Shown here one piece after another: positions 4,320 to 48,105 of a stretch of DNA of 64,000 nt. The position numbers were made by a program, and so were the translations under genes. This stretch comes from Streptomyces sp. SCL15-4 (GTDB lineage Bacteria > Actinomycetota > Actinomycetes > Streptomycetales > Streptomycetaceae): contig NZ_JAOBTQ010000001.1 in assembly GCF_033366695.1 (NCBI RefSeq), positions 3,596,001 through 3,660,000 of the forward strand. The letters run 5' to 3'. The notes under the pieces are model-generated. The model saw nothing but the letters and a program-made list of their open reading frames with translations, was not told the origin of the DNA and did no database searches. Numbering within the stretch: the stretch's first letter is position 1; each line of letters begins with the position of its first letter.

Positions 4320-7300
4320 TCAGACCTCTTCGACGCTGCTCGGCTCGCGCCGGGACAGGTCGATACCGAGCTCCTCCGCGGCGCGGAAGACGTCCTCGTC
4401 GGTGTCGCGCATCTCGATGGACATACCGTCGCTGGACAGCACCTCCACGTTCAGGCAGAGCGACTGCATCTCCTTGATGAGCACCTTGAAGGACTCGGGG
4501 ATGCCGGGCTCGGGGATGTTCTCGCCCTTGACGATGGCCTCGTAGACCTTCACGCGGCCGGTGACGTCGTCGGACTTGATGGTCAGCAGCTCCTGGAGCG
4601 CGTAGGCGGCGCCGTACGCCTCGAGTGCCCACACCTCCATCTCGCCGAACCGCTGGCCACCGAACTGGGCCTTACCACCCAGCGGCTGCTGGGTGATCAT
4701 CGAGTACGGCCCGGTCGAGCGGGCGTGCAGCTTGTCGTCGACCAGGTGGTGCAGCTTCAGGATGTACATGTAGCCGACGGAGATCGGGTCCGGGAACGGC
4801 TCACCGCTACGGCCGTCGAACAGCCGCGCCTTGCCGGACGGGAGCACCATGCGCTCGCCGTCGCGGTTCGGGATGGTGTGCTGCAGCAGACCCGCCAGCT
4901 CGTCCTCGCGGGCACCGTCGAAGACCGGGGTGGCGACGTTGGTGCGCGGGGCGACCTTGTCGGCGCCGATGACCTGCAGGCGCTGGGCCCACTCGTCGGC
5001 GAGACCGGAGACGTCCCAGCCGCGGCTGGCGAGCCAGCCGAGGTGGATCTCCAGGACCTGTCCCGGGTTCATTCGGGACGGCACACCCAGCGGGTTGAGG
5101 ATGATGTCGACCGGGGTGCCGTCCTCCAGGAACGGCATGTCCTCGATCGGCAGGATCTTGGAGATGACACCCTTGTTGCCGTGCCGGCCGGCGAGCTTGT
5201 CCCCGTCGGTGATCTTGCGCTTCTGCGCGACGTAGACGCGCACCAGCTGGTTCACACCGGGGGGAAGCTCGTCGCCCTCCTCGCGGTCGAAGACGCGGAC
5301 GCCGATGACCTTGCCGATCTCGCCGTGCGGCACCTTCAGCGAGGTGTCACGGACCTCACGGGCCTTCTCACCGAAGATCGCGCGCAGCAGGCGCTCCTCG
5401 GGCGTCAGCTCGGTCTCACCCTTCGGCGTGACCTTGCCGACGAGGATGTCGCCGGCGACGACCTCGGCACCGATACGGATGATGCCGCGCTCGTCGAGGT
5501 CGGCGAGGACCTCCTCGGAGACGTTCGGGATGTCCCGGGTGATCTCCTCGGGGCCGAGCTTGGTGTCACGGGCGTCGACCTCGTGCTCCTCGATGTGGAT
5601 CGAGGAGAGGACGTCGTCCTGTACGAGGCGCTGCGACAGGATGATCGCGTCCTCGTAGTTGTGACCCTCCCACGGCATGAACGCCACGAGCAGGTTCTTG
5701 CCGAGGGCCATCTCGCCGTTCTCGGTGGCCGGACCGTCGGCGAGGACCTGGCCCTCGACGATGCGGTCGCCCTCGTTGACGATGACCTTCTGGTTGACCG
5801 AGGTGCCCTGGTTGGAGCGGGCGAACTTGGCCAGGCGGTACGTGATGTACGTGCCGTCGTCGTTGGCGGTGGTGATGTAGTCCGCGGAGACCTCCTGGAC
5901 CACACCCGCCTTCTCGGCCTTGACGACGTCGCCGGCGTCGACGGCGGAGCGGTACTCCATGCCGGTGCCGACGAGCGGGGCCTCCGACTTAATCAGCGGC
6001 ACGGCCTGGCGCATCATGTTCGCGCCCATGAGGGCACGGTTGGCGTCGTCGTGCTCGAGGAAGGGGATCATGGCGGTCGCGACCGACACCATCTGGCGCG
6101 GCGAGACGTCCATGTAGTCCACGTCCTCGGGGCCGACGTAGTCGACCTCGCCGCCACGGCGGCGGACGAGCACGCGGCTCTCCTCGAACCGGAGGTCGCT
6201 GGTCAGCGGCGCGTTGGCCTGCGCGATGACGAAGCGGTCCTCCTCGTCGGCGGTCAGGTAGTCCACCTCGTCGGTGACCTGGCCGTCGATGACCTTGCGG
6301 TACGGGGTCTCGACGAAACCGAACGCGTTGACCCGGCCGTACGAGGCGAGCGAGCCGATCAGACCGATGTTCGGGCCTTCGGGCGTCTCGATCGGGCACA
6401 TGCGGCCGTAGTGCGAGGGGTGCACGTCACGGACCTCGAAGCCGGCCCGCTCACGGGACAGACCGCCGGGGCCGAGCGCCGACAGACGGCGCTTGTGCGT
6501 CAGCCCGGAGAGCGGGTTGTTCTGGTCCATGAACTGCGACAGCTGGCTGGTGCCGAAGAACTCCTTGATGGAGGCGACGACCGGCCGGATGTTGATCAGG
6601 GTCTGCGGCGTGATCGCCTCGACGTCCTGGGTCGTCATGCGCTCGCGCACGACGCGCTCCATACGGGCCAGGCCCGTGCGGACCTGGTTCTGGATCAGCT
6701 CGCCGACACTGCGCAGGCGCCGGTTGCCGAAGTGGTCGATGTCGTCGGTCTCGACGACGACCGTCTCGCCGTTGTCACCGGTGGTCTCGGTCTCGCCGGC
6801 GTGCAGCTTCACCAGGTACTTGATCGTCGAGATGATGTCCTCGACGGTCAGGATGCCCGCGTCCAGCGGGGTGTCCGTACCCAGCTTCTTGTTGACCTTG
6901 TAGCGGCCGACCTTGGCGAGGTCGTAGCGCTTGTGGTTGAAGTAGAGGTTCTCCAGCAGCGTCTGCGCGGCCTCACGCGTCGGGGGCTCGCCCGGGCGCA
7001 GCTTGCGGTAGATGTCGAGCAGCGCGTCGTCCTGGCCCTGGGTGTGGTCCTTCTCCAGGGTGGCGCGCATCGACTCGTAGTCGCCGAACTCCTCGAGGAT
7101 CTGCTCGGTGGTCCAGCCGAGCGCCTTCAGCAGCACGGTGACCGACTGCTTGCGCTTGCGGTCGATGCGGACACCGACCATGTCGCGCTTGTCGATCTCC
7201 ATCTCCAGCCAGGCACCCCGGGACGGGATGATCTTGGCGGAGAAGATGTCCTTGTCGGAGGTCTTGTCGATGGTGGAATCGAAGTAGACACCGGGGGAAC

Positions 7301-7805
7301 GGACCAACTGCGACACCACGACACGCTCGGTGCCGTTGATGACGAAAGTGCCCTTGTTCGTCATGAGCGGGAAGTCGCCCATGAAGACGGTCTGGGACTT
7401 GATCTCGCCGGTCTCGTTGTTGGTGAACTCGGCGGTGACGAAGAGCGGGGCGGCGTACGTGAAGTCGCGGTCCTTGCACTCGTCGATCGAGTTCTTCGGC
7501 GGCTCGAAGCGGTGGTCCCGGAACGTCAGCGACATCGACCCGGAGAAGTCCTCGATCGGGGAGATCTCCTCGAAGATCTCCTCCAGACCGGACTTGGTGG
7601 GGACGTCCTGACCGTTCTCCAGAGCCTCCTCGACCCGAGTCTGCCAGGCGGTGTTGCCGAGCAGCCAGTCAAAGCTCTCGGTCTGCAGCGCGAGCAGGTT
7701 CGGAACCTCGAGGGGCTCCTTGATCTTTGCAAAGGAGATGCGCAGCGGGGCGGTGCTGGCGCCGTTGTTCGTATTCGCGGTCGAGGCAGTGCGCGAGGCG
7801 GCCAA
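4320..7805 (-). CDS. rpoB: DNA-directed RNA polymerase subunit beta
   Basis: Second-largest RNA polymerase subunit, target of rifamycins. The TTG at 7805 is chosen as start: it has a GGAAGGA ribosome binding site just upstream and gives the streptomycete N-terminus ([15 protein letters not shown]) and 1161 aa, the known streptomycete length. The open frame extends 20 codons further up without support. The rifampicin pocket reads [15 protein letters not shown] then [10 protein letters not shown], with the Asp, His and Ser positions all wild type (the Ser is about residue 442), so this allele looks rifampicin-sensitive. It is the first gene of rpoBC. Confidence 0.98.
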
Positions 7806-8266
7806 GAGGGGGTCCTTCCGAGGGCTCGGACTCACTACGCGCGTACCGGTCCCTCTCCTGTACACAGAGACGGAGACCCCAGGTCGGGGGGTTTCGGTCG
7901 ACTGTGCTCAAGTGAGGGCAGACCCCTGGTGACGGGCAGGGGACAGCTAACAGGCAGCGCAAAGGGTCAGTGTAGCCACTTGGCACACTGATGTCCAGCG
8001 CGGGTATTCGAAGACCCTCGTTGTGCTCAACGCCCTCTTCAACGTCCTCGGCATGCCTGCTCTCAACGCACGTTGATACTGCCCTCTTCGTCGTCGATCC
8101 ATGCCTCGGATTCGGATCCTTGTGACGACGCGTCCTGAGAATTGCGCGCTGCGTGCCGTTCGTCAAGGGCTCCTGGCCGGAACCGGGACATCGGGAGACA
8201 CGACGAAGATCACCTTACCCCGCACGAACACAGGTGCAAGGCGGCCCTCGCCGGGCCCGGGGAACG
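7806..8266 (-). promoter_or_regulatory. rpoBC leader and promoter region
   Basis: About 460 nt without a coding frame lie between the rplL terminator hairpin and the rpoB start. By position this is the rpoBC promoter plus a long 5' leader. I could not pick out convincing -10/-35 elements by eye and claim no specific promoter. Confidence 0.5.
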
Positions 8267-8304
8267 CCGAAGGGCGACCACCCGGATGGATGATCGCCCT
8301 TCGG
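8267..8304 (-). terminator. rplJL terminator or attenuator hairpin
   Basis: An 11-bp inverted repeat (CCGAAGGGCGA with complement) encloses 16 nt and begins about 50 nt after the rplL stop codon. It probably ends or attenuates the rplJL transcript ahead of rpoBC, where L7/L12 must be made in excess over polymerase subunits. Confidence 0.75.
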
Positions 8305-8353
8305 TGCGTTCGCGTTACAGCCCTAGCGGGCCGCTGTGGCGCTCGCGAAGGTC

Positions 8354-8737
8354 TTACTTGACCTCGACGGAGGCACCGGCGCCCTTGAGGGCCTCGGCGG
8401 CCTTGTCAGCGGCCTCCTTGTTGACCTTCTCGAGGACCGGCTTCGGGGTGCCGTCGACGAGGTCCTTGGCCTCCTTCAGACCCAGGGAGGTCAGCTCACG
8501 CACGACCTTGATGACCTGGATCTTCTTGTCGCCGGCACCGGTGAGGATGACGTCGAACTCGTCCTTCTCCTCCTCGGCCTCGGCGGCCGGGGCACCCGGG
8601 GCGCCGGCGGCGGCAACGGCGACCGGGGCGGCGGCGGTGACGTCGAACTTCTCCTCGAACGCCTTCACGAACTCGGCGAGCTGGATCAGGGTCATGCCCT
8701 CGAACTCGGCGAGCAGTTCGTCCTGGGTGAGAGCCAT
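8354..8737 (-). CDS. rplL: 50S ribosomal protein L7/L12
   Basis: Forms the multicopy L7/L12 stalk that recruits translation factors. The protein is 127 aa. It has an N-terminal dimerisation helix region ([20 protein letters not shown]), an Ala/Gly/Pro-rich hinge around residues 42-55, and the C-terminal factor-binding domain with the conserved [16 protein letters not shown]. It follows rplJ by 111 nt on the same strand and ends before a strong hairpin. Confidence 0.98.
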
Positions 8738-8848
8738 GATGGCTTTCCTTCCACTAAATCGGCAGGTGCCGGATGTACATGGTTGGCGGGCGTACGTTCG
8801 GCCCGCTACGACCGCTGCCTGGAGACGGCGGTCATGATGCGAGCCGAA

Positions 8849-9379
8849 TTACTCGGCACCGCCCTGCTCGGCCTGCTTGGCGCGCAGCGCGTCCACGGTG
8901 CGGACGAGCTTCGACGGGAGCGCCTGGAAGAGCGCGGCAGCCTGGGACTGCTTGCCCTTCATGGCGCCCGCCAGCTTGGCGAGCAGAACCTCACGGGACT
9001 CGAGGTCCGCAAGCTTCTTGATCTCGTCGGCGGACAGCGCCTTACCGTCAAGGACACCGCCCTTGATGACGAGATCGGGGTTCTCCTTGGCGAAGTCACG
9101 CAGACCCTTCGCCGACTCCACCGGGTCACCGGTGACGAAGGCGACGGCCGTCGGGCCAGCGAAGAGCTGGTCCTCCAGCGTGATCCCGGCCTCCTTGGCC
9201 GCAATCTTGGTCAGCGTGTTCTTCACCACGGCGTACTGGGCGTTCTCACCGAGCGACCGGCGCAGCGTCTTGAGCTGCGCCACGGTGAGACCGCGGTACT
9301 CGGTCAGCACGGCGGCGTTGGAGCTGCGGAACTTGTCCGTCAGCTCCGCAACCGCGGCAGCCTTGTCGGGCCTCGCCAT
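8849..9379 (-). CDS. rplJ: 50S ribosomal protein L10
   Basis: Anchors the L7/L12 dimers to the large subunit and, in bacteria, represses its own operon. The ATG at 9379 gives 176 aa beginning [17 protein letters not shown], the usual actinobacterial L10 N-terminus, with a GGAAGGAGG ribosome binding site upstream. The open frame runs 200 codons further upstream but that part has no family similarity. It is co-transcribed with rplL. Confidence 0.98.
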
Positions 9380-30528: not shown

Positions 30529-30756
30529 ATGAGGACGAGCACACGGCGCGCCAATCGTATTCTCGCGGTGTCCGCACTCGGCGTTTTCCTGGCCGGCGGT
30601 GCCGCGTCCGGCACCGTCGCAACCGCTTCGGCGGCTGCCCCGGCTCATGTCGCGTCGCTCTCGGGCCAGTCGGGACGCGGTTGCGACGAGGTCTGGGGGG
30701 ACGGCGGCTGTGACAGCTCGGCGCCCGGCCGAGCGGAGTTCACGCGCCCGTCGTAG
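30529..30756 (+). CDS. small secreted protein
   Basis: 75-aa predicted exported protein. A Sec signal peptide (basic RTSTRRANR, hydrophobic ILAVSALGVFLAGG, cleavage near ATASAAA) leaves a mature peptide of about 40 residues with two Cys (GRGCDEVWGDGGCDSS) that could form a disulfide. No family recognised. The stop overlaps the 3' end of the converging gene by 17 nt. Confidence 0.6.
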   Translation: MRTSTRRANRILAVSALGVFLAGGAASGTVATASAAAPAHVASLSGQSGRGCDEVWGDGGCDSSAPGRAEFTRPS

Positions 30757-31081
30757 CGCTCGGGTGAATGTCGTCCAGGCTGTCGACGATGGTCACGGAC
30801 AGCGGACGTGAAGGCCTGGGCACCTGGATGAGAAGAGGCACGTACACCACGTCACCGTGCCTGAACTCGGCCTTCCAGGAATGCCGGTAGCACACGACTT
30901 CGTCCGGCTCGTCCCGCGTCGCGTAGCACTGAGTCGTCGACTTCACCGGTGCGGTCCGCGGTTTCTGCGCCAGGACGCCGGCGTCACTCGCCGTGGCCCC
31001 CCATCCGCCCAACGCCAGACAGCAGGTGGTTACGGCTACGAGGCCGCCTCTGCGCACGGTCGCTTTCGTCGTTTTGATCAC
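30740..31081 (-). CDS. small secreted protein
   Basis: About 113 aa from the GTG at 31081 (VIKTTKATVRRGGLVAVTTC), which places a signal peptide at the N-terminus (LVAVTTCCLALGGWGATASDA). The frame itself continues to a TTG at 31144 with no ribosome binding site. The mature part has two Cys (TTQCYATRDEPDEVVCYRHSW) and a Pro-rich strand. No family recognised. It lies 65 nt downstream of the polyasparagine protein on the same strand and may share its transcript. Confidence 0.6.
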   Translation of the reverse strand: MIKTTKATVRRGGLVAVTTCCLALGGWGATASDAGVLAQKPRTAPVKSTTQCYATRDEPDEVVCYRHSWKAEFRHGDVVYVPLLIQVPRPSRPLSVTIVDSLDDIHPSATTGA

Positions 31082-31146
31082 CCCGCACGAACGTGGCAGT
31101 CCGACGGCCAGGGAACTGTGGACACCCGGCCGCCGGACCGTCAAGT

Positions 31147-31665
31147 TCAGCCGTTGTTGTTATTGTTGTTGTTGTTCGCCCCTCCGCCCCCATTGTTGTT
31201 ATTGTTGTTGTTATTGTTCCCGCCTCCACCGTTGTTGTTGTTATTGTTGTTGTTGTTCGCGCCCCCACCTCCATTATTGTTATTATTGTTGTTGTTGTTG
31301 TTCGCTCCTCCGCCTCCATTGTTGTTGTTGTTATTGTTGTTGTTCGCGCCTCCGCCGCCATTGTTGTTGTTATTGTTGTTGTTGCCACCCCGTCCACCGT
31401 TGTTGTTGTTATTGTTGTTGTTTCCGCCCCGACCTCCGTTGTTGTTGTTGTTATTGTTGTTGTTGTTGTTGTGGTGGTGGCCACCCCGTCCGCCGTTGTT
31501 ATTGTTATTGTTGTTGTTGTTCCCGCCGTTGTCGCTCGGCGCCGTCGCGTGGGTTCCTGTGGGTGCCGGGGCGGCGAAGGCGCTCGACGGCGCCAGGGCG
31601 CCTCCTGCGGCCAGGGCTGCCGATGCGGCTATCAGGGCCGCGCGCTTGGCATACTGGTTCGCCAT
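31147..31665 (-). CDS. secreted polyasparagine/glycine repeat protein (first copy)
   Basis: 172 aa. A clear Sec signal peptide (MANQYAKRAALIAASAALAA ... SAFA, cleavage near residue 31) is followed by nine runs of 8-11 Asn separated by GGRGG, GGGGA or GGGG; one run is preceded by HHH. AAGGAAA lies 6 nt before the ATG. The Asn codons are mostly AAC with an AAT placed inside nearly every run, which makes this the least GC-rich stretch of the window. The mature chain should be disordered or aggregate-forming on the cell surface; function unknown. Confidence 0.85.
   Translation of the reverse strand: MANQYAKRAALIAASAALAAGGALAPSSAFAAPAPTGTHATAPSDNGGNNNNNNNNNGGRGGHHHNNNNNNNNNNNGGRGGNNNNNNNNGGRGGNNNNNNNNGGGGANNNNNNNNNGGGGANNNNNNNNNNGGGGANNNNNNNNNGGGGNNNNNNNNNGGGGANNNNNNNNG
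31160..31527. repeat. imperfect tandem repeat encoding Asn runs
   Basis: Nine units of about 36-50 nt: a GTT/ATT run of 24-33 nt on the plus strand (AAC/AAT on the coding strand) alternating with a GC-rich spacer coding Gly-rich linkers. Units differ in length by whole codons, as expected from slippage or unequal recombination under selection for the frame. Confidence 0.9.
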
Positions 31666-31973
31666 AATGTTTCCTTTCCGAGGGGCATGGACGTCGTAGA
31701 TCGGCAGTCCATTGGGCAGAGGGCAGGCGACACACTCGGCGCGGAACGGCCGGCGCCGCGATCTCCGATGCCCGGGTCTGAGACTCTCCGGCCAGCATGC
31801 GCGGCCATGGACGGCGGACGCATCGGGTGAGCACCCCAAGTTCCGCCCCCCGCACCCCACGTCCGTCCCGGCACACCCCACGCCCCGTCCGGCAGCCCGC
31901 GTCCCGGCCCGGCCGGTCTTGTTCGGTCCGGATCTTTTGCGCGGCTGCGGCCGCAGGAGGAAACTGGCCGGTG
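31666..31973. promoter_or_regulatory. divergent intergenic region
   Basis: About 300 nt between the first polyasparagine gene (minus) and the LuxR-family regulator (plus). It must hold both promoters. I see no strong palindrome; the minus-strand side carries an AAGGAAA ribosome binding site and the plus-strand side an AGGAGG. Confidence 0.5.
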
Positions 31974-34565
31974 ATGGACCTTCTGGAGCGGGAAACCGTG
32001 CTCCGGGACCTCGCCGGTCACCTGAAGGCCGCCGTGAGTGGTCCCGGACGCCTGGCCCTTGTCCGCGGGGAGGCCGGGATCGGCAAGTCCGCCGTCGTCC
32101 GCCGTCTCGCCCAGACAGCCGATCCCCATATCCGCGTCGTGACCGGCGCCTGCGACCCGCTCGCCACACCCCGTCCGCTGGGCCCTCTGCTGGACTTGGC
32201 CCCGCACCTGGGCCGTGAGGTGCGCACCGCCCTGGCGGCCACGCCGACCGGCCCCGGCCGTCCCGACGAGGTCTACGACTGTCTGCTCGCCGACCTGAGC
32301 GCCTATCCCAGCCTGCTGGTCGTCGAGGACATCCACTGGGCCGACGAGGCCACGTTGGATCTGCTGCGTTACCTGGCCCGCCGGCTGCCGAACGTCCCGG
32401 CACTGGTGCTGGCCACCTACCGCGACGACGAGATCGGCCGCACCCACGACGTGACCGCTCTCCTCGGCACCCTGGCCGGCTATCCGTGGGTGTACCGGCA
32501 CGATCTGGCCCCCTTGAGTCGTCGGGCCGTCGCGCGGCTGGCCACCGGACACGCCGTGGACGCCGAGCGGCTGTACCTCGTCTCCGCCGGCAACCCGTTC
32601 CTCGTCACCGAGATCCTGGCCGCCCCCGCCGAGCCCATCCCGGCCACCGTGCGCGAGGCCGTGGCGGGCCGCCTGGTGTGCCTGTCGGCCGCGGCGCGCA
32701 GGGTGGTGGACGTGCTGGCCGTCCTGGGGACCCAGGTTCCGCTGCGCCTGTTGGCCGGCGTCCTGCCGGCCCCGGAGGAAGCGCTGGACGAGGCCGTGGC
32801 CTGCGGCATAGTGCGCACCCACGGACAGGTGGCCGAGTTCCGCCACGAGTTGACCCGGCTCGCGGTGCTGGAGGCCGTGCCCGCCGCCGCCCGTCTGCGG
32901 ATACACCGGCAGGTACTGGCGGCGATGCGGTCCGGCCCGGCCGCCGAGGAGGATCTGGCGCTGCTGGCCGATCACGCCGCCGGCGCCGGGGACCCGGCCG
33001 CCGTGTTGCGGTACGCCCCCGCGGCGGCCGTCCGTGCCGCCGCGCTGGGCGCGCACCAGGAAGCCGCCGACCAGTACGCCCATGCCCTGCGGTACGCCGA
33101 CCGCCTGCCGTCCGAGCAGCGGATCTCGCTGCTGGAGGGCCATTCGCGGGCCTGTCTCCTGTCGGGCCGGCTGGACGAGGGGATCGCGTCCCGCCGTACG
33201 GCGGTGAGGCTGCGCCGTGCGCTCGGCGACCGGCTGCGCGAGGGAGAGAACCTGCGCTGGCTGTCCTGTTGGCTGTGGCCGGCCGGGCGGGCGGCCGAGG
33301 CCAGGCGGACCGGCGCCGACGCGGTGCGGGTGCTCGAAGGGCTGACGCCCGGCCGGGAGCTGGCGCGGGCCTACCTGAACCTGTGTCGTCTGGCCTGTTA
33401 CGGACATGAAGGCGAGGCGGCGGTCGCCGGCCACGCCGGGAAGGCGATCGCTCTCGCCGAGTGCTCCGGTGACACGGGAGTGCTCGTCCAGGCGCGCTTC
33501 CACACCGCGGCGGCACGCGTGCTGCGCGAAGGACGCGGCTGGGAGGAGTGCGAGCGCGCGGTGTCGGACGCGGTGGCCGCGGGTCTGCCGCTGGACGCGG
33601 GCGCGCTGGCGCTCGTCATGTGCTGGCTGGCCGCGTTGCGGCGGGACGCCGTCCGGGCGGCCGCGGCCGTGAGCCGGGCGGAGGACTACTGCCTCGATCA
33701 CGACCTGCCGGCCTACCTGCTGTGCGCACGGGCCTGGGGCAGTTGGGCACTGCTGAACCGGGGATCGTGGTCCCGGGCCGCCGATGCCGCGCAGAAGATC
33801 CTGGCCCATCCGGGCCCGCCGCCGGTCGCCCGGGCCCTGGCACTGACCGTGCTGGCCCTGGTGCGTGCGCGTCAGGGCACGCCCGAGGTGTGGCCGCCGC
33901 TGGATGAGGCGGCGCACCTGGTCGACCCGGGCTGCCTGCGGGACACGGGGCTGGGGTGGGAGGCACCGGTCGAGGCGGCCTGGCTGACCGGTGACCACGA
34001 GCGGGTTCGGGCGGAGGCCCGCAGCGGTCTGGCCGCGCTGGCGGACCGTGTCCACCCCTGGCTGTCCGGCCCCCTGGCCTGTTGGATCCGGCGCGCCGGA
34101 GGCGAGCCTCCGCAGGTCCCGGCGGCCGGACCCTACGCGCTGGAACTGGCCGGCGACTGGGCCGGCGCCGCGGCACGCTGGGACGGGCTCGGCTGCCCGT
34201 ACGACGCCGCGCTGGCCCGCCTGTCCGGTGACGCGTCCGCGCTGCGCCAGGCCCTGGCCGCGTTCGAGGCCCTGGGCACGCGGCCGGCCGTGGCCCACAC
34301 CCGCTCGCTGATGCGGGTCCGCGGGGTACGTCCGGTCCGGCAGGGGCCGCGGCCGGCCACCCGGGCCAATCCCTACCGGCTCACCAACCGGGAGATGGAC
34401 GTCCTGAAACTGCTGGACGAGGGTCTTTCGGACGCCGAGATCGCCGCTCGCCTCTACATCAGTCCCAAGACCGCCGGCCATCACGTAGGCGCCGTGCTGA
34501 CCAAGCTGGGAGTCCACAGCCGCCACGAAGCCGCCCGAAAGCACCACGGCCCCGAGCGCGAATAG
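31974..34565 (+). CDS. LuxR-family regulator with AAA-type ATPase domain (LAL type)
   Basis: 863-aa large ATP-binding regulator. The N-terminal ATPase has Walker A GEAGIGKS (residues 32-39) and Walker B LLVVEDIHWAD; a helical TPR/MalT-like middle of about 500 residues follows. The C-terminal LuxR/GerE helix-turn-helix (about 800-856) reads LTNREMDVLKLLDEGLSDAEI and SPKTAGHHVGAVLTKLGVHS. Such proteins activate specific operons on ligand binding. The start is ATG 31974 or the GTG at 31971; AGGAGG lies upstream. It is flanked by two polyasparagine genes transcribed the other way, the likely targets (inference). Confidence 0.93.
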   Translation: MDLLERETVLRDLAGHLKAAVSGPGRLALVRGEAGIGKSAVVRRLAQTADPHIRVVTGACDPLATPRPLGPLLDLAPHLGREVRTALAATPTGPGRPDEVYDCLLADLSAYPSLLVVEDIHWADEATLDLLRYLARRLPNVPALVLATYRDDEIGRTHDVTALLGTLAGYPWVYRHDLAPLSRRAVARLATGHAVDAERLYLVSAGNPFLVTEILAAPAEPIPATVREAVAGRLVCLSAAARRVVDVLAVLGTQVPLRLLAGVLPAPEEALDEAVACGIVRTHGQVAEFRHELTRLAVLEAVPAAARLRIHRQVLAAMRSGPAAEEDLALLADHAAGAGDPAAVLRYAPAAAVRAAALGAHQEAADQYAHALRYADRLPSEQRISLLEGHSRACLLSGRLDEGIASRRTAVRLRRALGDRLREGENLRWLSCWLWPAGRAAEARRTGADAVRVLEGLTPGRELARAYLNLCRLACYGHEGEAAVAGHAGKAIALAECSGDTGVLVQARFHTAAARVLREGRGWEECERAVSDAVAAGLPLDAGALALVMCWLAALRRDAVRAAAAVSRAEDYCLDHDLPAYLLCARAWGSWALLNRGSWSRAADAAQKILAHPGPPPVARALALTVLALVRARQGTPEVWPPLDEAAHLVDPGCLRDTGLGWEAPVEAAWLTGDHERVRAEARSGLAALADRVHPWLSGPLACWIRRAGGEPPQVPAAGPYALELAGDWAGAAARWDGLGCPYDAALARLSGDASALRQALAAFEALGTRPAVAHTRSLMRVRGVRPVRQGPRPATRANPYRLTNREMDVLKLLDEGLSDAEIAARLYISPKTAGHHVGAVLTKLGVHSRHEAARKHHGPERE

Positions 34566-34588
34566 GACTCCGTGACGGATTCCTCACG

Positions 34589-35041
34589 TCAACTGAATTT
34601 GCAGTTGATGTTCTGGCTGCCGGTGAAAGTGTTGTTTCCCTGTGCCACCTGCCCCGTCGGGTAACAGATCTGCAGGAGCGGCGGGATACCCAGAAGAGAA
34701 AGCAGTCCACCGCCGCCTTGCGCCGCGGCACCGGCGAGGATGTTGTTGTTATTGGTGTTGTTGTTCGTGTTCACCCCACCATTGTTGTTGTTATTGTTGT
34801 TGTTGTTCACCCCGCCGGCATTGTTGTTATTGTTGTTGTTATTGTTGGTGTTCGTGGTGCTCTGGGTGCCGGTGTCTCCCGTGCCCGCCTGCCCCATCCG
34901 GTAGGGAGCCTGGAGCAGTGCTGTCAGGCCCAGGCGGGACAGGAGTCCCGCGTCGCCCCGCGCCTGTGCGCCGCCGGCGCTGAGGAGCACCACCGTGATC
35001 GCGGCGGTACTGATCGTGGCGAACCGCTTGGTGAGCTTCAC
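34589..35041 (-). CDS. secreted protein with duplicated hydrophobic module and polyasparagine linker (second copy)
   Basis: 150 aa from the GTG at 35041 (VKLTKRFATISTAAIT), preceded by GAAAGG; signal peptide cleavage near GGAQA (residue 27). Two similar modules flank the linker: GLLSRLGLTALLQAPYRMGQ (from residue 32) and GLLSLLGIPPLLQICYPTGQ (from about 116), each followed by a Gly/Thr/Asn/Ser-rich stretch. Between them lie Asn runs of up to 9 with Gly/Val/Thr spacers. Two Cys near the C-terminus (LLQIC and NINC) could pair. I recognise no family. The layout recalls streptomycete aerial-surface proteins, by analogy only. Confidence 0.82.
   Translation of the reverse strand: MKLTKRFATISTAAITVVLLSAGGAQARGDAGLLSRLGLTALLQAPYRMGQAGTGDTGTQSTTNTNNNNNNNNNAGGVNNNNNNNNNGGVNTNNNTNNNNILAGAAAQGGGGLLSLLGIPPLLQICYPTGQVAQGNNTFTGSQNINCKFS
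34740..34855. repeat. tandem Asn-codon runs (second locus)
   Basis: Runs of GTT/ATT triplets on the plus strand encode the Asn linker. As in the first locus, AAT is scattered inside AAC runs. Confidence 0.85.
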
Positions 35042-35236
35042 TCGGCCAACCTTTCGTCGTCCCTGGTGCCGCATTTCCAGTGGACAGGATGGCGACGGCC
35101 GAGCGGAACGATCACCAGGCGCGCGGCAGTGCCCGCGATTTCCCCCGTACAGCCTCAGGGTTTCGCGCGGCTTGCCGGGCCGGAAATCAACGGCCGCCGC
35201 GTCGGGAAATTCCAGCGCGTCCGGCCGGGACGGTCC

Positions 35237-47633: not shown

Positions 47634-48105
47634 CCACGCACGGTGGTTGTGCGCGGGCCCCGTGTACGACGGCCCGGCCCCGGGTCCGGGCCGGGCCGCA
47701 CGCGGGCCCGGAGCGGGCGCTGCGCGGGCTCCGGCTCTACTCCGGCTCCGGCTCGGGCTCCGGGCTCCGGGCTCCGGGCTCCGGGCTCCGGGCTCCGGGC
47801 TCCGGGCTCCGGGCAGGCTGTGCGCGGAGCCCTCGGCAGCCGCACGCCGACTCCGGGCAGGCCTGCACGGCGTCCGGGCAGGCCATACGCCGGACCCGAG
47901 CGAGCCCTGGCGAGCCCTGCACGGGCTCTGGGCGGGCCGGGGGCGGACCCCGAAGGCCGGGGCCCGGGCCCCGGCGAGGGCGGGAGCGGGCGGGTGAGGC
48001 CGGCCGCCGGCCGGGGTGGGGAAAACCCCCCGGTCGAGACGCCGACGGCCTCCATGTCCCCGGCGCGCGCGGCGGACCACTCTGGAAGTACGGCGGAACC
48101 GCCGC
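47634..48105. repeat. GC-rich intergenic region with heptamer array
   Basis: 470 nt between the kinase genes. It contains a GC-rich hairpin (GGCCCGGCCC with complement, 47670-47698) that may end the first kinase message. It also has eight perfect tandem copies of CGGGCTC at 47754-47809. The open frames crossing the region are low-complexity and I do not accept any as a gene. Confidence 0.8.
47670..47698 (+). terminator. terminator-like hairpin after the first kinase
   Basis: Perfect 11-bp stem of GC pairs (CGGCCCGGCCC and complement) with a 7-nt loop, 37 nt after the stop codon. Confidence 0.6.

Follow-up and report, generated by a model that had tools for sequence, protein, structure and literature searches.

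Genes at the locus and their co-occurrence

We analyzed a 64,000-nucleotide stretch of the Streptomyces sp. SCL15-4 genome (positions 3,596,001 to 3,660,000 of contig NZ_JAOBTQ010000001.1; hereafter ‘the window’), in which Pfam and NCBIfam scans showed that yccF and htpX flank five genes, here called A, B, C, LAL and D (Table 1). LAL encodes a large ATP-binding LuxR-family regulator, and its neighbors C and D encode exported-looking proteins with long asparagine runs. An earlier reading of this DNA from its letters alone (the original prediction) had described two exported poly-asparagine proteins flanking such a regulator between yccF and htpX, and both its coordinates and its strands proved right. 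C contains nine runs of 8-11 asparagines with Gly-rich links between them and a final block, NNNNNNNNG, that ends at the stop codon; with a 32-residue signal assumed, Asn makes up 59% and Gly 26% of mature C. D contains two N9 runs (25% Asn past an assumed 27-residue signal), preceded by a GLLSLLG-type module and followed by a GLLSLLG..CYP.GQ..GN.FTG.QNINC module. In the window, B is encoded on the strand of C and follows it, and C, D and B have Sec-export-like starts; the signal peptides of the window proteins were judged by eye, with no predictor.

We searched 392 Streptomyces genomes and called LAL present where the profile match exceeded 1600 bits. LAL was found in eight genomes and poly-asparagine coding DNA, (AAY)8, in 10, which agrees with the prediction that long asparagine runs are rare. 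All eight LAL genomes carried such DNA, compared with two of the 384 others (Fisher p 3.5e-15), and the co-occurrence of regulator and repeat genes on which the original prediction had staked itself is thus borne out. Of the two LAL-free genomes, G250 has a lone C-like gene and G191 a pure AAT tract (L104 4357-4488, minus strand), all of the (AAY)8 matches listed for G191 being pure AAT. Four genomes with profile matches at E 1e-150 and 504-877 bits (G006, G205, G236 and G314) were excluded from the LAL count, and all four lack (AAY)8. A named collection was searched with two peptide patterns; among the best 80 of at least 447 LAL relatives, six loci were 75-80% identical to LAL, with C present in all six, and the other 74 (50% identity or less) had no N6 run in any frame. 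A poly-asparagine open reading frame was absent beside the LALs of L014-L017 and L105 (39-40% identity), L018 (34%) and L011 (51%). The last of these (5922-9359, minus strand, in G006) has a different small exported-looking neighbor. In a family sample, the poly-asparagine pattern occurred in four of 249 genomes, one of which (G518) belongs to another genus.

Table 1. Positions of the features within the window
Feature	Position	Strand	Length	Remarks
A, small open reading frame	30529-30756	+	75 aa	signal-like N terminus; non-core
B, small secreted protein	30740-31081	-	113 aa	CYAT..CYR.S.KAE.RHG..VYVPILIQVP.P motif; two conserved Cys in the mature part
C, secreted poly-asparagine protein	31147-31665	-	172 aa	divergent from LAL in 13/13 loci
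Three CACCCCA heptamers, 21-bp spacing	31832-31880			between C and LAL; candidate operator for LAL
LAL, large ATP-binding LuxR-family regulator	31974-34565	+	863 aa	AAA_16 and C-terminal GerE helix-turn-helix
D, secreted protein	34589-35041	-	150 aa	two N9 runs between GLLSLLG-type modules
GGCTGTACGGGGGAAA block upstream of D	35139-35154	-		exact in 8/11 loci
CTCCGGG heptamer array	47740-47814			11 copies

LAL shows the properties by which its family is defined, namely an N-terminal AAA/ATPase domain with a Walker A motif, a C-terminal LuxR helix-turn-helix (HTH) and large size. It matches PF13191 at residues 3-142 (71.7 bits against a cut-off of 32.6) and PF00196 at residues 803-855 (54.5 against 23.5), and the Walker A sequence GEAGIGK is unchanged across five LAL orthologues. 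The orthologues are about 75-84% identical. By a crude counting method, the ratio of nonsynonymous to synonymous substitution (dN/dS) was 0.27-0.39 for LAL (four loci), 0.23-0.70 for D with the asparagine columns excluded (eight loci) and 0.27-0.80 for B (eight loci), and hence below 1 in every pair tested (0.23-0.80). None of A, B, C and D had a Pfam family at E≤1, and their single NCBIfam match, that of D to the Rv1419 lectin model, was far under the cut-off (E 0.0061). We rejected D as an Rv1419-type lectin: only residues 4-46 align. The four PDB sequences matched by the D profile (E 0.0021-0.08) are unrelated chains that we judged to be low-complexity matches, and Pfam analysis of 11 D orthologues gave one stray match, in one orthologue (E 0.057).

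Movement of the cassette between chromosomal sites

We compared 13 loci (the window, L007-L010, L019-L023 and L101-L103; L024, apparently a repeat of the G077 locus, was not counted). L022 comes from S. griseofuscus DSM 40191. C is divergent from LAL in every one of them; in L019 the contig ends inside C and only its start is visible. B is present in 10 of the 13, being missing from L007, L009 and the visible part of L019, and D is present in 11 of the 12 assessable loci, being absent from L010 (G117). Two layouts occur, between which D and B exchange sides: B-C-LAL-D at htpX-yccF (the window, L008 and L101; also L007, without B) and D-C-LAL-B elsewhere (L020-L023, L102 and L103; L010 without D, L009 without B). 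When flanks of at most 6 kb were compared, six groups emerged (htpX-yccF; L010/L020; L022/L102/L103; L021; L023; L009) with no blastn match between groups at E 1e-20. Empty htpX-yccF sites, in which the two genes lie within about 0.8 kb and there is no cassette, were found in four genomes (L107-L110), and one of these, G117, has its cassette at a different place (empty site L110, cassette L010). These comparisons show that the cassette genes are linked and relocate together, among six or more unrelated sites. As for a mobile carrier, plasmid and phage collections were searched with B, which had no match in either, and the plasmids alone with LAL, which had 92 matches, all below 60% identity.

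The original prediction had counted four signal-peptide genes between yccF and htpX. One of them, B, is a core gene of the cassette, and the most informative one. A lies outside the common core: it was present in all four htpX-yccF cassettes, in none of eight cassettes elsewhere and in none of six cassette-free yccF regions. Because A is confined, among the loci searched, to htpX-yccF cassettes, we rejected it as a core gene.

Control region, asparagine runs and gene B

The gap between C and LAL measures 247-496 bp across the loci. All 13 gaps contain CCCCA-N15-17-CCCCA, where dinucleotide shuffles would lead one to expect 0.18, and nine contain the strict CACCCCA pair. The repeat spacing of 21-22 bp corresponds to two helical turns, and the window has its CCCCA cores 98-140 bp upstream of LAL and 168-210 bp upstream of C. 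On the strength of the sequence, LAL is likely to control C. B trails LAL in line by about 30 bp in seven loci (L010, L020-L023, L102 and L103). Upstream of D, the block GGCTGTACGGGGGAAA is exact in eight of 11 loci and has one change in the remaining three, and an exact copy occurs once in its own genome; no assignment of this conserved block to a promoter class was reached.

We also analyzed codon use within C and the asparagine runs. Over the first 44 codons of 10 C orthologues, codon positions 1, 2 and 3 carry 320, 235 and 832 pairwise differences, and this excess at position 3 confirms the coding strand. Run lengths and block numbers differ among orthologues. At least one AAT codon occurs in 152 of 153 N runs (122 from C and 31 from D), with exactly one, mostly mid-run, in 106. 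The mean longest pure AAC stretch is 4.03 codons, compared with 5.46 after codons were shuffled within runs; the share of AAT in the runs is about that in LAL genes (17 of 94 Asn codons), and its placement is even. This even spacing is consistent either with a safeguard against slippage out of frame or with the origin of the runs from a single interrupted unit.

Among 8000 candidates scored, a sequence search with C gave at least three poly-asparagine matches, with different N termini. In G020 (L007 10306-10989, plus strand), C runs out of frame past its fourth N block and more blocks follow in another frame, through either a draft error or slippage. The lone C-like protein of G250 (L099 6910-7392, minus strand) has IIVVI ahead of its N blocks. 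G117 encodes a second poly-asparagine protein (L100 5769-6452, plus strand) with DRSEARDEAE-type repeats followed by IIVVV and two N8 runs; it looks unrelated to C and D, and has IIVV[VI] ahead of asparagine in common with the G250 protein. A search of 199 genomes with D matched five, four of them strongly and all four LAL-bearing. The fifth, G129, gave two partial matches, to the end modules only; they lie near 6715-6909 of L012 and 6128-6211 of L013 on the minus strand, in exported-looking proteins that carry GLL.L...GN.FTG.QNINC, have no N runs and run on into other sequence. These proteins are possible relatives of the source of D.

Of 8000 scored candidates, at least 99 were related to B at E≤0.001. 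The B profile had no PDB match at E≤1, and Pfam analysis of 10 B orthologues gave no match. The 10 copies from cassettes share a Cys in the signal region, but some of the wider relatives lack it, and we do not claim that B is a lipoprotein. B was searched in 359 genomes (199 + 160), and all 13 copies distant from LAL were opened (12 genomes and a second copy in G117). A tandem array (TRF score of at least 250) was present within 3 kb of 10 of these 13 copies, as opposed to two of 40 control regions (p 8.5e-7); the cut of 250 was chosen after the scores had been seen, and at 200 the counts are 11 of 13 and two of 40. The arrays encode repeat proteins, nine of which adjoin B, the other (L144) being the TESPTGSP tail of B itself. 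The units beside B are GNTQGGTQGGG (L138, L139, L140), NTPNTPNTPGGG (L147, L148), KPGQET (L143, L150), PGQA (L149) and PAANPQGQ (L142), and NTP repeats are found among the proteins near B. By a simple script rule, eight of the neighboring repeat proteins start in an export-like manner, and the start of the one in L140 is cut off. L137, L141 and L145 fell under the TRF cut, L145 with an unread stretch beside B; L140, L141 and L150 are near contig ends, and L142 and L145 contain unread stretches. The loci are partly non-independent, since L138-L140, L147-L148 and L143/L150 look like related groups. Given these arrays, exported repeat proteins of low complexity appear to have B as a common partner, and the poly-asparagine proteins are one type of them. 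B is thus a marker for a wider group of loci that encode secreted repeat proteins, which goes beyond the picture given in the original prediction.

Two further features of the B loci were noted by inspection. A gene that looks like a receiver-LuxR regulator adjoins B in L138 and L139, and the repeat proteins of L139, L142, L143, L149 and L150 have in common, by eye, an N-terminal CRV.G.T..G..F....F.V ahead of the repeats.

Interpretation and comparison with known systems

We propose, with about even confidence, that B-C-LAL-D may be a cassette for a regulated exported repeat polymer. LAL would be an activator gated by a ligand or by ATP; bound to the phased CCCCA heptamers, it would switch on C (and, in this genome, B behind C), LAL itself, or both. 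Once exported, C would self-associate outside the cell via its N8-11/Gly blocks in an amyloid- or hydrogel-like manner. D, which has N runs in common with C as well as GLLSLLG/Cys end modules, might co-assemble as a nucleator, cap or anchor, and B would be a small disulfide-bearing helper (a chaperone or anchor) for several exported N/Q/T/G/P-rich repeat proteins in Streptomyces. More tentatively, we suggest an undescribed Streptomyces surface or matrix class consisting of exported tandem-repeat proteins with interchangeable N/Q/T/G/P-rich units (poly-N, GNTQGGTQ, NTP and KPGQET), B as the common assembly partner and local LuxR-family regulators, in which the poly-asparagine LAL cassette would be one exchangeable variant.

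Several observations weigh against the polymer cassette. The original prediction had assumed a dedicated regulator of both repeat genes; the CCCCA pair found in every C-LAL gap supports this for C, but the pair is present upstream of D in none of 11 loci, and direct control of D by LAL is therefore unsupported by that motif. The strict pattern has only two matches in the genome, overlapping and both here, compared with six for the reversed control, so that its rarity by itself carries no significance. Because the 13 loci have common ancestry, conservation of the motif does not amount to 13 independent events, and the shuffles are uncorrected for this. Some B and D pairs are weakly constrained, D is absent from G117, and within 14 kb around the lone C-like gene of G250 there is no match to LAL, D or B. 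B occurs in 16 of the 359 genomes, with LAL in four of these and without it in 12, and of the six LAL genomes among the 359, four have B and two (G020 and G077) do not. In addition, no anchor motif was seen by eye in C or D, and the two proteins may therefore simply be released.

We also considered the possibility that C and D are soluble, disordered, hydrophilic proteins (a hydrogel, a water-holding or stress-protectant material, or a nitrogen-rich sink) that form no ordered fibre and are induced by LAL under a nutrient or stress cue. The Asn- and Gly-dominated composition of mature C is in keeping with this, and the KPGQET and NTP repeats near B look unlike classical amyloid. However, the conserved GLLSLLG/Cys modules of D suggest association, and a passage of PMC11132505 calls low-complexity domains rich in N notoriously prone to aggregation; we regard the soluble state as somewhat unlikely. 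It appears quite improbable that LAL regulates neither C nor D, being autoregulated or directed at distant targets, with the CCCCA repeats serving lal alone or another factor. The cores do lie nearer to LAL than to C, with none upstream of D, and since the strict pattern matches only here in the genome, no wider regulon shows; however, in all 13 loci the boxes separate LAL from a divergent C, and B follows LAL closely in line in seven. Finally, the N runs could be neutral or selfish trinucleotide expansions in ordinary exported proteins, their linkage to LAL being hitchhiking. Variable run lengths and block numbers, the frame break in the C of L007 and the pure AAT tract of G191 are in keeping with such expansion, and the even placement of AAT could stem from duplication of one interrupted unit. 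Nevertheless, AAT interrupts all but one of the runs, one design recurs in two unrelated genes, and the runs accompany a single LAL at no fewer than six sites, and we consider expansion of this kind very improbable. On the whole, the earlier interpretation is partly supported.

If the polymer cassette is real, then the export of asparagine-run proteins is deliberate in a high-G+C bacterium, which has a switch and helper of its own for them and offers a bacterial model for poly-asparagine assembly outside the cell. B would then mark a class of surface or matrix proteins in Streptomyces that has stayed hidden; domain libraries miss such repeat proteins because they are of low complexity.

Searches of open-licence papers with exact terms found no such locus and no publication on exported poly-asparagine proteins in Streptomyces, which accords with the prediction of an undescribed system. 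Pfam includes a curlin model and a chaplin model. Chaplins and rodlins resemble the cassette proteins in being small exported streptomycete proteins, whereas the cassette is carried by some 2% of the Streptomyces genomes analyzed (8/392), and no chaplin domain was found, there being no Pfam match in A-D, the 10 B orthologues or the 11 D orthologues apart from the stray one. UniRef labels the D relatives P0008 and P0025 ‘RdlA protein’, which is a source label only; RdlB forms amyloid, according to part of PMC5314377. LAL regulators (PimR, SARP-LAL) have the same combination of ATPase and LuxR HTH, and a passage of PMC11784345 cites heptameric direct repeats for PimR, a regulator of the LAL type. 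However, PimR/PnR2 control antifungal production, whereas the cassette LAL adjoins secreted repeat proteins. Asn-rich low-complexity domains are also known from Dictyostelium and Plasmodium (a section of PMC11132505); those proteins are eukaryotic, whereas the cassette proteins are export-like, belong to a high-G+C bacterium and have interrupted codon runs.

The nearest working analogue is curli. As described in a portion of PMC9268375, the operon that encodes CsgD diverges from csgBAC, which CsgD activates, so that, as in the cassette, a regulator gene is divergent from the genes for an exported repeat subunit that contains Q/N and for accessory subunits. CsgD and LAL both have a LuxR-type HTH, and a LuxR-type regulator is divergent from the subunit gene in all 13 cassette loci; the NCBIfam CsgD model matched LAL residues 799-854 with 27.3 bits, far under its cut-off of 250. 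However, no sequence relation was found. C and D, without a Pfam family at E≤1, lack CsgA-type repeats, the cassette repeat being N8-11 plus Gly as opposed to Ser-x5-Gln-x4-Asn in CsgA, and the cassette also differs in its large, ATP-binding regulator, in having no exporter gene and in its Gram-positive host. With no repeat or sequence match, the cassette is not a member of the curli systems. What is new is a form of regulated, exported repeat proteins that is linked to a LAL and unrelated in sequence, and if B marks a general class, then the cassette would represent more than such a variant.

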